Of a DNA stretch of 64,000 nucleotides, positions 10,292 through 13,846 are shown one piece after another. Both the position numbers and the translations under genes were made by a program. The notes under the pieces were generated by a model. It had not been told where the DNA came from. It made no database searches and saw only the letters and a list, made by a program, of their open reading frames with translations. The stretch's first letter is position 1. Each line of letters opens with the position of its first letter. The stretch is from Sinorhizobium psoraleae (lineage in GTDB: Bacteria > Pseudomonadota > Alphaproteobacteria > Rhizobiales > Rhizobiaceae), in assembly GCF_013283645.1 (NCBI RefSeq), contig NZ_JABEKV010000002.1:503798-567797 (forward strand), read 5' to 3'.

Positions 10292-11392
10292 CTACGCCTC
10301 GATCTGCACGTCGCCGAGCGGCCGCGAGCAACAGGCAAGGATGTAGCCTTCCTCGATCTCGTCATCGAGAATGCCGCCATTGTGATTCATCTCGACGTCG
10401 CCGGCGACCTTCATCACCCGGCATGTACCGCAGATGCCGCCCTCGCAGGCCGCACCTATCCTGACGCCATTGGCGCGCGCGGTCTGCAGGATCGTCTGGC
10501 CCGGCACGGCCGCCACGTCCTTGCCGCTCATGGTAAAGCTTACCCGCACCGCCTCGGCCGGAGCGCCCGCAGCAGGTCCAGCGCGCACAGCAAGTTCCTC
10601 GGCCGCCGGCGCGGCGGCCGGCTGGAAGCTCTCTTCGTGATAACGCGCCATCTCGAAACCGGCGCCTTTCAGCATCTCCCTGACGCCGCGCATGAAAGGT
10701 TCAGGCCCGCAGCAAAACACCGTCCTCTCCAGGAAGTCCGGCGCGAGCAGAGGCAATTTCGTCGCGTCGATGCGGCCGCGCAGTCCGTGCCATCCGTCAC
10801 GCGCCTCGTGGCCTTCCACGAGAAAGCCGAGATTGAGCCGTGGCATCTGGCGGGCGAGAACCTCCAGTTCGGAGCGGAACAGGAGATCCTCCGGCCGGCG
10901 GGCGCAGGAAATGAAGGTGACGTCCGTGTCGGGCGCGCAGTCGACCATCCACCGCGTCATCGACATCATCGGCGTCACCCCGGAACCGGCCGAGATAAAC
11001 AGATATTTCTCACCCGGATGGCGAACGAAGCTGAAATCGCCGAGCGGCCCGAGCGCCTTCAGCCTCATGCCCGGCTTCAGGTTCTCGAACATCCAGCGGG
11101 TGCCGACACTGCCCGGCTGCGCCTTGACGGTGACGGCAACCGAGAGCGGTCGCGACGGCGAAGACGACAGCGTGTAGGTGCGCATCACCGGCTCTTCGCC
11201 GACGGGCAGTTCGAGCGTGACGAACTGCCCCGGCAGATAGCGAAACCAGGAAGGCTTGTCCGAGCGGAAGGTGAAGGTCATCACATCCGCGGTCTCGACG
11301 ACGGCCGAAATGCACTCAAGCAGGTGCTGGCGATCGATCCACGGGTGCAGTTCATCGAAGTGGCGGAAGGACAGAGGCATTTCCATGGTCAT
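10292..11392 (-). CDS. gbcB: Glycine betaine demethylase, ferredoxin-reductase subunit
   Basis: A 366-residue flavin/iron-sulfur reductase that supplies electrons from NAD(P)H to the Rieske oxygenase encoded just upstream. Order of domains: FAD-binding barrel (RTYTLSSSPSRPL, ~residues 83-95), NAD-binding domain (ISAGSGVTPMMSM, ~130-142) and a C-terminal plant-type [2Fe-2S] ferredoxin domain with CEGGICGTC and a later C (ILACCSRP). The start ATG at 11392 overlaps the stop of gbcA (ATGA), so translation is coupled. The pair corresponds to GbcA-GbcB, which turn glycine betaine into dimethylglycine plus formaldehyde; the related stachydrine demethylase system is a possible alternative. A cobalamin riboswitch precedes the operon. 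Confidence 0.88.
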   Translation of the reverse strand: MTMEMPLSFRHFDELHPWIDRQHLLECISAVVETADVMTFTFRSDKPSWFRYLPGQFVTLELPVGEEPVMRTYTLSSSPSRPLSVAVTVKAQPGSVGTRWMFENLKPGMRLKALGPLGDFSFVRHPGEKYLFISAGSGVTPMMSMTRWMVDCAPDTDVTFISCARRPEDLLFRSELEVLARQMPRLNLGFLVEGHEARDGWHGLRGRIDATKLPLLAPDFLERTVFCCGPEPFMRGVREMLKGAGFEMARYHEESFQPAAAPAAEELAVRAGPAAGAPAEAVRVSFTMSGKDVAAVPGQTILQTARANGVRIGAACEGGICGTCRVMKVAGDVEMNHNGGILDDEIEEGYILACCSRPLGDVQIEA

Positions 11393-12633
11393 GCCACCCG
11401 CGAGAGAGGAGCGGCGTCGCCCTGCAGACGGTTCTGCATGAAATTGCAGTACCATTCGACGAACTGCATCACGCCGCCCTCGTGCTCGGCCGAATAGGGG
11501 CCCGGTTCATAGGCCGGCGAGCGGATGCCGAAGGCATTTTCTTCGACGATCTGGCGGTCCTGGTCGTTCGTCTCCGTCCAGACATGGGTCAAGTCCTCGA
11601 TCGTGTAATCGACGCCCTCGACCGCGTCCTTGCTGACCAGCCATTTGGTGGTGACCTGCGTCAATTCCGGTCCAAGCGGTAACACGCGGAAGGTGATCGC
11701 GTGATCGCCGAGCACATGGTTCCAGGTCGTTGGGTAGTGGAAGAGCAGCAGCGTACCGATCCCGCGCGCGTTGACGCCCGCCGAGAGCTGTTTGCGGACT
11801 GCGGCCTGACCGGACATGGTGTAGCTCTCGGCCCCGTTGATCAGCGGCATCCGCGTCATCCGGAACTGGCCGGTCGGCGCAATCCTGAAGGTGCTCGGAA
11901 GGCCCGCCGCCTCGCACTTTTCCCAATGGGCGCCGATCTCCGGGTCGTTCATCGCGCCCTGGACGCCTGTCACCGTCGGGGCTTCGGGGTAGGTGCGGCA
12001 AAGCTCCGGATGGTTGGCGGCGCAATGGTAGCACTCGCGGTTGTTCTCCCAGACAAGCTTCCAATTGCCCTTCTCGACGATGGTGCTCTCATAGGCGACC
12101 TTGGTTTCGCCGAGACGATGCGGTGCGAGATAGCCTGCGGCCATGTCGCGGAACGGCTGGAAATCCATCGGATTGTCGGCGAGGCTGATGAAGATGTAGC
12201 CGCCCACGGTTTCGCAATGGACCGGCTTCAGGCTGTGCTCAGCCGGGTCGAAGCCTTCGGGCATTTGCCGGGCGAAGAGCAGCTTGCCGTCGAGTTCGTA
12301 CGTCCACTGGTGATAGGGACAGACGAGCTTGGCCGATGAGCCTTTGTGCTGCGTGCAGACACGCGAGCCGCGGTGGCGGCAGGAATTGTGGAGCGCCCGG
12401 ATCGTTCCCTGCCGGTCGCGGACGATGACGATCGGATAGTCGCCGACCTGAACGGTGAAGTAGTTGCCGGCTCTCGGAATTTCGCAGTCGTGACCGATGA
12501 AGAGCCAGTCCTTGTACCAGATGTGCTCGAGGTCTTGCCGGTAATAATCCGGGTCGGTGTAGAAGGCCCGGTCGAGGCTATAGCCTTCACGGCGGGTTTT
12601 CAGCCGGCGCAGCATATCGTTCTGAACGTCCAT
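11389..12633 (-). CDS. gbcA: Glycine betaine demethylase, Rieske oxygenase subunit
   Basis: A 414-residue Rieske non-haem-iron oxygenase alpha subunit. The N-terminal Rieske [2Fe-2S] ligands are in CRHRGSRVC (~residues 85-93) and CPYHQWTYELDG (~104-115); the catalytic iron site follows with NNRECYHCAANHPELCR (~200-216), a segment characteristic of quaternary-ammonium demethylases such as GbcA and stachydrine demethylase rather than aromatic-ring dioxygenases. It removes a methyl group from glycine betaine as formaldehyde, using electrons from gbcB, which overlaps it by 4 bases. GAGGA lies 6 bases before ATG 12633. The mRNA leader contains a cobalamin riboswitch (12755-12931), an unusual controller for this enzyme. 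Substrate is inferred from family. Confidence 0.88.
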   Translation of the reverse strand: MDVQNDMLRRLKTRREGYSLDRAFYTDPDYYRQDLEHIWYKDWLFIGHDCEIPRAGNYFTVQVGDYPIVIVRDRQGTIRALHNSCRHRGSRVCTQHKGSSAKLVCPYHQWTYELDGKLLFARQMPEGFDPAEHSLKPVHCETVGGYIFISLADNPMDFQPFRDMAAGYLAPHRLGETKVAYESTIVEKGNWKLVWENNRECYHCAANHPELCRTYPEAPTVTGVQGAMNDPEIGAHWEKCEAAGLPSTFRIAPTGQFRMTRMPLINGAESYTMSGQAAVRKQLSAGVNARGIGTLLLFHYPTTWNHVLGDHAITFRVLPLGPELTQVTTKWLVSKDAVEGVDYTIEDLTHVWTETNDQDRQIVEENAFGIRSPAYEPGPYSAEHEGGVMQFVEWYCNFMQNRLQGDAAPLSRVA

Positions 12634-12676
12634 GTCCTATCCTCGTTCATCAGTTCGGAGAGGCAGGAAGGAACCA

Positions 12677-12698
12677 GCACCGATAAAGATACCGGCGC
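12677..12698 (-). promoter_or_regulatory. Hairpin between riboswitch and gbcA (possible expression platform)
   Basis: In the minus-strand leader, GCGCCGGTA and TATCGGTGC form a 9-bp stem (two G-U pairs) closed by the tetraloop TCTT. It lies between the riboswitch aptamer and the gbcA start. No U-run follows, so it is not a simple terminator; a role in switching is inference. Confidence 0.45.
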
Positions 12699-12754
12699 AT
12701 CAACGGCTCCGATCCGGCTGCCCGCCGCAACCAGTTACGGTCGATATTTCGTCC

Positions 12755-12931
12755 CAAGGCTGGTTTCCGGGCTCTGGAGCGGCCCCGCGAGGGACCAGCC
12801 CGGCGCCTTCCCGGACACACCGTCCAGTGGCCTTTTGCCGTGGCTTTCGCTCCACCACCGTTGCGGGGGCAGCGCCGGGATCTGACCGGCTTCCCAATTC
12901 TCCGCCTCCCTGGAGCGGCACCTTGAGTGTT
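12755..12931 (-). promoter_or_regulatory. Cobalamin (adenosylcobalamin) riboswitch
   Basis: Read on the minus strand, this leader has the conserved blocks of the cobalamin riboswitch in order: AAGGTGCCGC, GGGAAGCCGGT, a CGGCGCTGCCCCCGCAACGGT core, GGCCACTG, GGGAAGGCGCCGGGC and the 3' B12-box GAGCCCGGAAACCAGCC (about 12758-12776). The aptamer ends about 120 bases before the gbcA start, with no other minus-strand gene between them. In this class, adenosylcobalamin binding normally lowers expression of the downstream genes. Control of a betaine demethylase operon is therefore the direct reading of the arrangement. Confidence 0.96.
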
Positions 12932-13231
12932 CCTATCTAAGCGCGCACAGCAGTTCGGCATCTGCCGATTGACGACATCCGATTCCGGAAAGGCGACACG
13001 ACATTCTCGTGTTCAATCGCGAAGCAGCCATAAAGATTGTTCATTAGAAACAATGTGATAGTAGAAAATTTAAGCAACTGGCGATTTTTTTGGCAGTGCC
13101 ATCTCCGGCACGAAGTTGACTGGCCATTTTGCGACATTCGTCCCATGCGAGCGTCATCGACGAAATGGTTGAAGAATCATCTGTTAACCCTGAACGACTA
13201 GCATTCCGCAACGGATCAATTCGCGGACAGG
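12932..13231. other. Divergent intergenic region upstream of the riboswitch
   Basis: AT-richer sequence that must hold the promoter of the riboswitch-gbcAB transcript (minus) and of the following plus-strand gene. It contains the 19-base inverted repeat ATTGTT-N7-AACAAT at 13036-13054, a plausible operator, and a poly-T stretch near 13087. I could not assign a convincing -35/-10 pair. No gene or ncRNA is recognised. Confidence 0.5.
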
Positions 13232-13846
13232 ATGGCGCCGACGCCGATGGCAAAACTCAGATATTATGACGCCGCCCCGAGAGCCTCGCTGCCAGCGCCC
13301 AGGACCACACCACATGCGGAGTTCCTCCGAACCGGACGGATCGAACGCCGACGGCACTGGGTAACCGAGCAGCGGCGTTACCTGACGCATGAGGAAGTCG
13401 CCGAGCGCACGGGGCGGAAACTGGCGGCGGCCGGGGAGACCACCCACAAGCGGATCAACGCTTTCCATGCATCGATCCAGTTTCCGAAGATGATCTTCCA
13501 CCGCACGCTCCCGAACAGTCCGCATCTCGGCTACTGCCACGTGACCGCCGCAAATACGCACCTTCCCCAGTCGCGCGATCTCACCTGGGCTTTCTATTTT
13601 GCGAACTTCTTTTCCGATCTCGGTGACGAGACGCATTTCTTCGATCGGATACAGACAGGCTATTCGCGGATGTATTTCGCCGTGGCCATCGAGCCTGGAG
13701 ACGAGGAAGGCCGGATGGTCATCAACCGCGATGTCCGCGGTAACGGCCTGATCTTCCGGACACAGGACCCGAAGATCGCGCTCAAGAACGTCTTGATGCT
13801 GGGCGCGCGGGACGATGCGCTGCGCCAGATCATTCGCAGTCTCTGA
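13232..13846 (+). CDS. Conserved rhizobial hypothetical protein (DUF6656-like)
   Basis: A 204-residue cytoplasmic protein without signal peptide or membrane segments, rich in Arg and His. It resembles an uncharacterised Rhizobiaceae family that I recall as DUF6656; typical stretches are WVTEQRRYLTHEEVAERTGR, AFHASIQFPKMIFHRTLP and RDLTWAFYFANFFSDLGD. No catalytic motif is evident. The start may instead be ATG 13247 (MAKLRYYDAAP); neither has a strong Shine-Dalgarno site. It is transcribed away from the riboswitch-gbcAB operon and is followed directly by a three-unit palindrome array. GC content and codon use look native, which supports a real gene. Function unknown. Confidence 0.7.
   Translation: MAPTPMAKLRYYDAAPRASLPAPRTTPHAEFLRTGRIERRRHWVTEQRRYLTHEEVAERTGRKLAAAGETTHKRINAFHASIQFPKMIFHRTLPNSPHLGYCHVTAANTHLPQSRDLTWAFYFANFFSDLGDETHFFDRIQTGYSRMYFAVAIEPGDEEGRMVINRDVRGNGLIFRTQDPKIALKNVLMLGARDDALRQIIRSL

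Follow-up and report, generated by a model that had tools for sequence, protein, structure and literature searches.

The window analysed here, a stretch of 64,000 nucleotides from Sinorhizobium psoraleae (contig NZ_JABEKV010000002.1, positions 503,798 to 567,797), is part of a 7.43 Mb genome whose closest proteins are those of S. psoraleae and Sinorhizobium sp. 7-81 (99% for both), and carries on its minus strand a cobalamin riboswitch ahead of a two-gene operon for a Rieske oxygenase and its reductase. A cmscan search of the whole window against Rfam placed the aptamer (RF00174) at 12940-12741 (minus strand), with a score of 104.9 bits (cut-off 31.5) and an E value of 3.4e-25; the match covers the complete model (1-189) and is the sole one above gathering in the window. 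By its covariance score over the full model, the element is a member of RF00174, and many columns of the aptamer core are invariant across 24 aligned leaders. Adenosylcobalamin (AdoCbl) is the probable ligand. An earlier note on this DNA, made from the letters alone, had described a complete cobalamin aptamer on this strand, and the covariance search bore this out; the span given there, 12633-12931, includes the larger part of the aptamer together with the leader as far as the gene, rather than the aptamer as matched.

As the earlier note also had it, the first gene behind the aptamer (11389..12633, minus strand) encodes a Rieske oxygenase, a gbcA-like group V protein of 414 aa with PF00355 and PF00848 domains. 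It is followed by a gene for a gbcB-like flavin/ferredoxin reductase (10292..11392, minus strand), which has FAD, NAD and Fer2 domains and scores 395.5 bits against NF058606 (cut-off 500). The longest open reading frame (ORF) of gbcB starts at 11455; we assumed instead the ATG that overlaps the gbcA stop codon by 4 bases, a start chosen after the annotated S. meliloti Ak57 ortholog, and with this overlap translation of the two genes is probably coupled.

Group V Rieske oxygenases act on quaternary ammonium compounds and are recognized by a Cys pair, according to the passages concerned of PMC10952381. The window protein has the Rieske CxH...CxxH motif together with the Cys-X-X-Cys pair beside the iron site, here as ECYHC with the cysteines at 201 and 204; ECYHC is found in 85/85 proteins of its clade (clade A), that of the window included. 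This genome has one copy of the gene, apart from which there is only a partial match at 30% identity. The operon is of the Rieske demethylase type, as the earlier note claimed, and the name gbcAB applies more loosely than it was given there. The canonical GbcA label was rejected because the protein scores 516.5 bits against NF058607, whose curated cut-off is 670, and clade A is separate from the nine members above that cut-off. Identity is ~47% to these nine relatives and 56% to Stc2, and in the protein tree clade A is sister to the clade of Stc2 and 3n0q, whose reference proteins match their own PDB entries over their full length. The gene context of close homologs points to a betaine as the type of substrate: the Paracoccus versutus homolog (70%) lies in a gbcAB-fdhA-BCCT transporter neighbourhood, and in Agrobacterium 1D1609 (63%) gbcAB occurs together with fdhA and the gene of a glycine betaine ABC binding protein. 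In genome G238, gbcAB adjoins an fdhA-like ORF (our own ORF reading), and in G132, which has a sister-clade oxygenase, it adjoins mttB and a dimethylglycine-dehydrogenase-like gene. Glycine betaine is the probable substrate of this GbcAB pair.

The same genome encodes a corrinoid-dependent counterpart of such an enzyme, as is characteristic of the class of B12-independent isozymes. It holds five MttB-family genes, and an mtg-type cluster comprises an MttB-family protein, a B12-binding MtgC-like protein, DUF1638 and DUF5981 proteins, a Pterin_bind MtgD-like protein and a betaine-homocysteine methyltransferase/MtgE (NF005718, 577 bits); an OpuAC protein and cob-type genes are encoded close to it. 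The MttB-family protein of the cluster matches PDB 4yyc so well (1155 bits) that the two are nearly the same, and it scores higher with 9yce, the glycine betaine methyltransferase (414), than with 7xcl, a trimethylamine methyltransferase (137). Since the MtgC-like protein falls below the NCBIfam cut-offs (209.9 against 370 and 172.4 against 310), its label is taken from Pfam, the cluster and the relevant passages of PMC12478193. There, MtgC and MtgD of Ruegeria pomeroyi are required for both betaine demethylation and methionine synthesis, and MtgBCDE of S. meliloti lies beside a cobalamin operon; an S. meliloti study is also cited among aerobes lacking GbcAB, in a sentence of ambiguous wording. 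MtgB activity is a prediction in the present organism. Of note, a second MttB-family gene, followed by an FMN/NADH-oxidase-family gene, lies ~4-7 kb past the right end of the window on the same contig (C12:571608-575249; L047:6608-10249), ~55 kb from gbcAB; we read the FMN protein as demethylase-like, and the pair is perhaps another betaine route.

The arrangement is genuine and conserved beyond the genus. Leader DNA of gbcA was matched in 31/32 other genomes of the genus (in G013 and G030 only in pieces), and among the 29 loci with DNA, all ten leaders given to Rfam carried the aptamer, all 29 had at least two of three core motifs and 28 had all three. In named genomes, 55 of the best 80 of at least 594 loci had at least two of the three motifs (in Sinorhizobium, Shinella, Mesorhizobium, Phyllobacterium and others), while the other 25, many of them from Rhizobium and Agrobacterium, failed this rule; checked against Rfam on 74 leaders of the family, the rule recovered 49 and missed 3, with 22 true negatives and 0 false positives. 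The plasmid-borne clade A loci of P. versutus (L147) and Agrobacterium (L148) are without the riboswitch. At family level, the riboswitch is present in 60/85 Rhizobiaceae genomes with a clade A oxygenase.

If the oxygenase is a B12-free stand-in for MtgBCD, the riboswitch is expected to be kept where mtg is kept. In a sample of the order (347 genomes), 40/75 oxygenase places other than the window's own, at ~50% identity or more, were fetched and scanned; the 35 places at 48% identity or less were left unfetched. Within clade A, the riboswitch was found at 17/22 places. Counted per genome and with the window's own, mtgC was present in 16/17 riboswitch genomes, the exception (G292) being 74% complete, and in 1/5 riboswitch-less genomes (G276). 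The three riboswitch places found outside clade A were all in mtgC genomes. No cobalamin riboswitch was found at the nine loci of canonical GbcA above the NF058607 cut-off. Cobalamin riboswitches also occur ahead of oxygenases of the sister Stc2/3n0q clade in four genomes (L126, L132, L136 and L096); the association may thus have several origins, or may predate the split.

A larger sample of the family covered 217 Rhizobiaceae genomes, of which 85 had a clade A oxygenase; four places outside clade A (L237-L240), all riboswitch-less, were left out. Riboswitch status came from Rfam for 82/85 genomes, and from the leader DNA match and core motifs for G014, G021 and G028. Riboswitch and mtgC were distributed as 58/2/2/23 (+/+, +/-, -/+, -/-; Fisher p 2e-16), mtgC thus being present in 58/60 genomes with the riboswitch against 2/25 without it. 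The riboswitch is therefore kept mainly where the counterpart exists, with exceptions, and this also holds after correction for the tree. The earlier note had set the target apart from genes for B12-independent isozymes; this is not supported, given the mtg-type cluster and the retention of the riboswitch mostly together with mtgC. The two genomes with riboswitch and no mtgC are from a single genus, and at 61.3 and 56.3 bits their aptamers score lowest in the family; above them come an mtgC genome with 68.8 bits and then the rest, which range from 84.6 to 118.8. These two aptamers stand before gbcA at L177 and L178 (genomes G639 and G706), mtgC was not found in that genus, and they look like riboswitch decay in progress. 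Genus g47 includes two genomes with riboswitch and mtgC and a third that lacks both.

Riboswitch and mtgC change together along the tree. On the tree of the 85 proteins, the riboswitch accounts for 10 changes, or at least 9 when well-supported branches of another tree are counted. In 10 independent pairs differing in riboswitch, mtgC agreed in 8-9 and opposed in 0 (sign test p 0.004-0.008), and a Pagel-type test of correlated evolution (our own implementation, midpoint root, flat root prior) gave a likelihood ratio (LR) of 43.1 with 4 degrees of freedom.

These comparisons bear on a different link to B12, drawn in the earlier note, in which B12 represses betaine breakdown since this yields glycine, a source of 5-aminolevulinate and thereby of the corrin ring. 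The conversion of betaine to glycine and on to 5-aminolevulinate is ordinary biochemistry. Such feedback predicts that the riboswitch tracks B12 synthesis, for which we used bluB, needed for aerobic synthesis of the B12 lower ligand. In the raw table, bluB is indeed mildly associated with the riboswitch (43/17/10/15, p 0.008), and betaine is a component (6 g/L) of an S. meliloti B12 fermentation medium in the passage concerned of PMC5948670. With the tree taken into account, the bluB coupling was not significant (LR 7.6, p 0.11), the independent pairs giving on average 3.8 in the same direction, 0.5 in the opposite one and 5.7 without difference, and bluB was present in 10/25 riboswitch-less genomes. 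Moreover, genomes without the gbcA leader are not blind to B12: cobalamin riboswitches above cut-off were found elsewhere in 17/18 and 24/24 of those searched, the 24 including G639 and G706, in which other cobalamin riboswitches accompany a degraded gbcA leader. The genome of the window itself has three further cobalamin riboswitches above cut-off, and one below threshold as well. By our own ORF reading, one of the three stands before a small ORF accompanied by an ABC-transporter ATPase, one before bluB and one before a cbtA-like gene, and the sub-threshold element presumably precedes cobP/cobU. Feedback on precursor supply also leaves the joint loss with mtgC unexplained. Tested in these ways, it fits poorly and is not supported, and we regard it as very unlikely.

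How the aptamer could act on gbcA is suggested by the rest of the leader. Kissing between loops L5 and L13 is a feature of the cobalamin riboswitch class. The L5 loop stretch of the window leader (TGCCCCCGC, 12863..12871, minus strand; motif scan) is expected to kiss L13 (GCGGCGGGC, 12728-12720), the loop of the P13 hairpin (12714..12734, minus strand; folding and motif scan). In newly scanned Rhizobiaceae leaders, the L5 motif was found in 49/52 with a riboswitch against 1/22 without, and the L13 motif followed L5 in 48/52 of the riboswitch-bearing leaders. Both partners are thus present as sequence motifs, along with a conserved P13 hairpin, whereas the contact itself is only predicted; the L5 and L13 stretches can form 6 ungapped pairs at most.

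Downstream, folding predicts a sequestering helix (12635..12668, minus strand; 12668-12660 with 12644-12635) that pairs the Shine-Dalgarno (SD) sequence GAGG at 12644-12641. With L13 blocked as if kissing L5, the predicted pairing probability of the window SD was 0.95. The median was likewise 0.95 in the 45 riboswitch leaders with a recognisable SD (at least 0.9 in 25/45), and 0.66 in 19 relatives without riboswitch (at least 0.9 in 3/19), a difference with a one-sided p of 0.003, relatedness not being corrected for. In this comparison, L13 was blocked only in leaders where its motif was found, the start codon was set to the next ATG in ten leaders of the genus, and leaders without a recognisable SD were set aside (6/51 riboswitch-bearing and 7/26 riboswitch-less). 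The 3' side of L13 (GGGCAG) may compete for the sequestering strand (CTGCC); L13-type anti-sequestor competition has been proposed for other proteobacterial B12 riboswitches. A crude consensus scan of 12550-13250 found no intrinsic terminator; a terminator-type expression platform was therefore rejected, and SD sequestration is preferred. Given the SD-hiding helix and the putative L13 competition, control of gbcA is most likely translational, and OFF with AdoCbl.

The same kind of scan found no sigma-70-like promoter in 12550-13250; other promoter types are outside its reach, and transcription may thus still start between aptamer and gbcA. Of note, two leaders of the genus, L035 and L036 (genomes G016 and G014), which were excluded from the helix alignment, carry at least ~60 inserted bases, including a long inverted repeat, between aptamer and gbcA; this insertion in the expression platform may alter or break the switch.

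It could be argued that the leader is a non-functional relic, or conserved by chance inheritance, and an experiment on this leader was indeed not found in the literature searched. Full aptamers across diverse genera, repeated loss coupled to mtgC and an SD-hiding helix in many leaders make this extremely improbable.

Taken together, we consider it quite likely that the leader is a translational OFF switch on a B12-independent pathway of betaine demethylation whose B12-dependent counterpart is MtgBCD. The aptamer, the conserved P13 motif, the helix in many leaders, the operon, the mtg-type cluster and the phylogenetic coupling of riboswitch and mtgC were all obtained directly from the analysis. 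When AdoCbl is plentiful, it would bind the aptamer, L5 and L13 would kiss, and the helix would hide the ribosome-binding site of gbcA. The O2-dependent demethylase, which would convert betaine to dimethylglycine and formaldehyde, would then not be made, and betaine methyl groups would pass through the corrinoid-dependent MtgB, MtgC and MtgD to tetrahydrofolate and methionine. When B12 is low, L13 would instead be able to compete for the strand that forms the helix; the ribosome-binding site would then open and GbcAB would take over. In other words, rhizobia most likely make the B12-free oxygenase only when the B12-dependent betaine pathway cannot work. This scheme presumes AdoCbl as the ligand, the direction of control, L13 as anti-sequestor, glycine betaine as the substrate and MtgB activity here. 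The interpretation given in the earlier note is thus partly supported, and control of a B12-independent isozyme is favoured in place of its explanation.

The counterpart raises the question of what the switch serves, as MtgC and MtgD do both jobs in R. pomeroyi (PMC12478193, passages concerned). The split methionine synthase could fail at low B12, with GbcAB being derepressed for one-carbon units or for relief from betaine rather than as a replacement demethylase. Gene neighbourhoods in relatives speak on both sides. In G342, riboswitch-gbcAB is divergent from mtgC-DUF1638-mtgD, and metH-like genes stand beside riboswitch-gbcAB in G138 and G149. An mttB ortholog (at least 68% identity to that of the cluster) was found within 10 kb of mtgC in 14/16 riboswitch genomes examined (absent from G138 and G274; G132 and G274 carry a sister-clade oxygenase), against 1/4 genomes with mtgC and no riboswitch (G276, not G427, G305 or G362), a contrast that is confounded, as the oxygenases of the latter three are outside clade A. 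GbcAB gives formaldehyde, not methyl-tetrahydrofolate, and is no substitute for methionine synthase. In S. meliloti, MetH is present as well (SMc03112, one of the queries in PMC12478193). On balance, the methionine-centred account appears distinctly unlikely.

Further arrangements were seen around these loci. In G138 (L161, 9771-16271), a full-length metH-like gene follows riboswitch-gbcAB by ~275 bases on the same strand. In G149, a 136-bit cobalamin riboswitch (L125:513-717, minus strand; L155:10413-10617) is back to back with riboswitch-gbcAB and lies ~0.5 kb upstream of a LysR-type gene and then a split metH-like pair, with a small ORF possible in between (our own ORF reading); a riboswitch acting on B12-dependent methionine synthesis would, if so, be unusual. 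In G238, the gbcA leader likewise has a second cobalamin riboswitch back to back with it, in this case preceding genes for a TonB-type receptor and an ABC transporter (our own ORF reading).

As for the substrate, another quaternary amine such as proline betaine, switched by the same on-off logic against another MttB-family methyltransferase, would be compatible with the switch proposed above and differ from it in the compound demethylated. The oxygenase is closer to Stc2 than to the GbcA proteins of NF058607, and there is a choice of five MttB-family genes in the genome. The homologs of P. versutus and Agrobacterium 1D1609, with their fdhA and betaine transport neighbours, argue against it, as does the presence of Stc2 itself elsewhere in S. 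meliloti 1021, on pSymA. We thus hold a different substrate to be rather unlikely.

Several observations weigh against a translational switch between GbcAB and MtgBCD. The sub-cut-off GbcA score and the identities of ~47% and 56% mean that the substrate could be another betaine. In 20/45 riboswitch leaders, SD pairing is below 0.9, in some at 0.1-0.5; within the genus, the helix pairs show one-sided changes and two breaks, with zero two-sided changes; and in a plain fold of the window leader the helix closes even with L13 unconstrained, so that folding alone does not show the open state. Outside clade A, the riboswitch is at only 3/18 fetched places (14 of the 18 in the Stc2/3n0q clade), and 7/15 riboswitch-less places are in mtgC genomes. 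MtgC is present and the riboswitch absent in G711 and G647 (one genus) and in G276. Since MtgC also serves methionine synthesis, its tracking does not single out betaine demethylation; mtgB was examined in 20 neighbourhoods only; and bluB is mildly associated with the riboswitch before correction for the tree, as given above. Our remaining doubts concern the exact betaine, and whether the trait followed is demethylation or methionine synthesis.

The pairs metE/metH and nrdAB/nrdJ are known B12-independent and B12-dependent alternatives under cobalamin riboswitch control. As in these pairs, the aptamer here precedes an enzyme that would do the work of a B12-dependent enzyme without B12; unlike them, the target is a catabolic Rieske oxygenase, and O2-dependent demethylation to formaldehyde stands against methyl transfer to a corrinoid. 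The GbcAB enzymes of Pseudomonas and Chromohalobacter (NF058607/NF058606) share the two components, the group V Cys pair and, in close homologs, the fdhA and betaine neighbours, whereas the window pair falls below both equivalog cut-offs in a separate clade, and the loci above the GbcA cut-off have no riboswitch (0/9). The stachydrine demethylase Stc2 of S. meliloti pSymA (PDB 3vca and 4qup; the match of the pSymA protein to 3vca is full-length) is similar in its sister-clade position, 56% identity and ECYHC motif, and differs in locus and in the scarcity of the riboswitch outside clade A. Homologs of the corrinoid betaine demethylase/split methionine synthase MtgBCD(E) are encoded in this genome, and mtgC varies along with the riboswitch; the difference is that MtgBCD(E) is the proposed B12-dependent counterpart, not the riboswitch target. 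As a riboswitch, the element is of an ordinary kind, but its target and its logic are out of the ordinary.

PMC3766115 names 'isozymes of B12-dependent enzymes' among its categories of cobalamin regulons; its main text contains none of the words betaine, Rieske and dioxygenase (its additional files were outside this search). Among the matches listed in full-text searches, none linked a cobalamin riboswitch with gbcA, betaine or a Rieske enzyme; these searches did not reach subscription papers or supplements, those of PMC3766115 among them, and a table entry elsewhere is possible. The aptamer ahead of smc00982 in S. meliloti has been in print since 2007/2008: it appears in a list taken from Rfam in 2007 (PMC2245857) and in Table 3 of PMC2573895, with no function stated in the passages concerned, and the relevant part of PMC2848018 describes SMc00982 as a likely dioxygenase that is lowered in an hfq mutant. 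SMc00982 is probably the ortholog of the window gbcA-like gene, because it follows a chromosomal cobalamin riboswitch and the S. meliloti relative of the window gene has the same neighbourhood; a protein 90% identical to the window oxygenase is present in S. meliloti.

The switch proposed here would offer a reason for the aptamer listed before SMc00982 since 2007, would tie the use of betaine by legume symbionts to B12 status, and would place a gene of catabolism under cobalamin riboswitch control. A further point is the route by which S. meliloti demethylates betaine: in PMC12478193, MtgBCD is the explanation given for its second betaine route, and the passages concerned do not name a GbcAB-type enzyme there. 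In many Alphaproteobacteria, B12 status probably chooses by riboswitch the route by which an abundant osmolyte is demethylated, the methyl groups being kept on corrinoid and folate, for use in methionine and C1 metabolism, when B12 is present, and released as formaldehyde by an oxygenase when it is not. With this, gbcAB and mtgBCD would likely join metE/metH and nrdAB/nrdJ as one more B12-independent/dependent pair, here one of catabolism whose stand-in depends on O2. Differences between the two routes in their need for O2, in formaldehyde and in methionine supply could be of consequence in low-O2 nodules and for betaine-fed industrial B12 strains.

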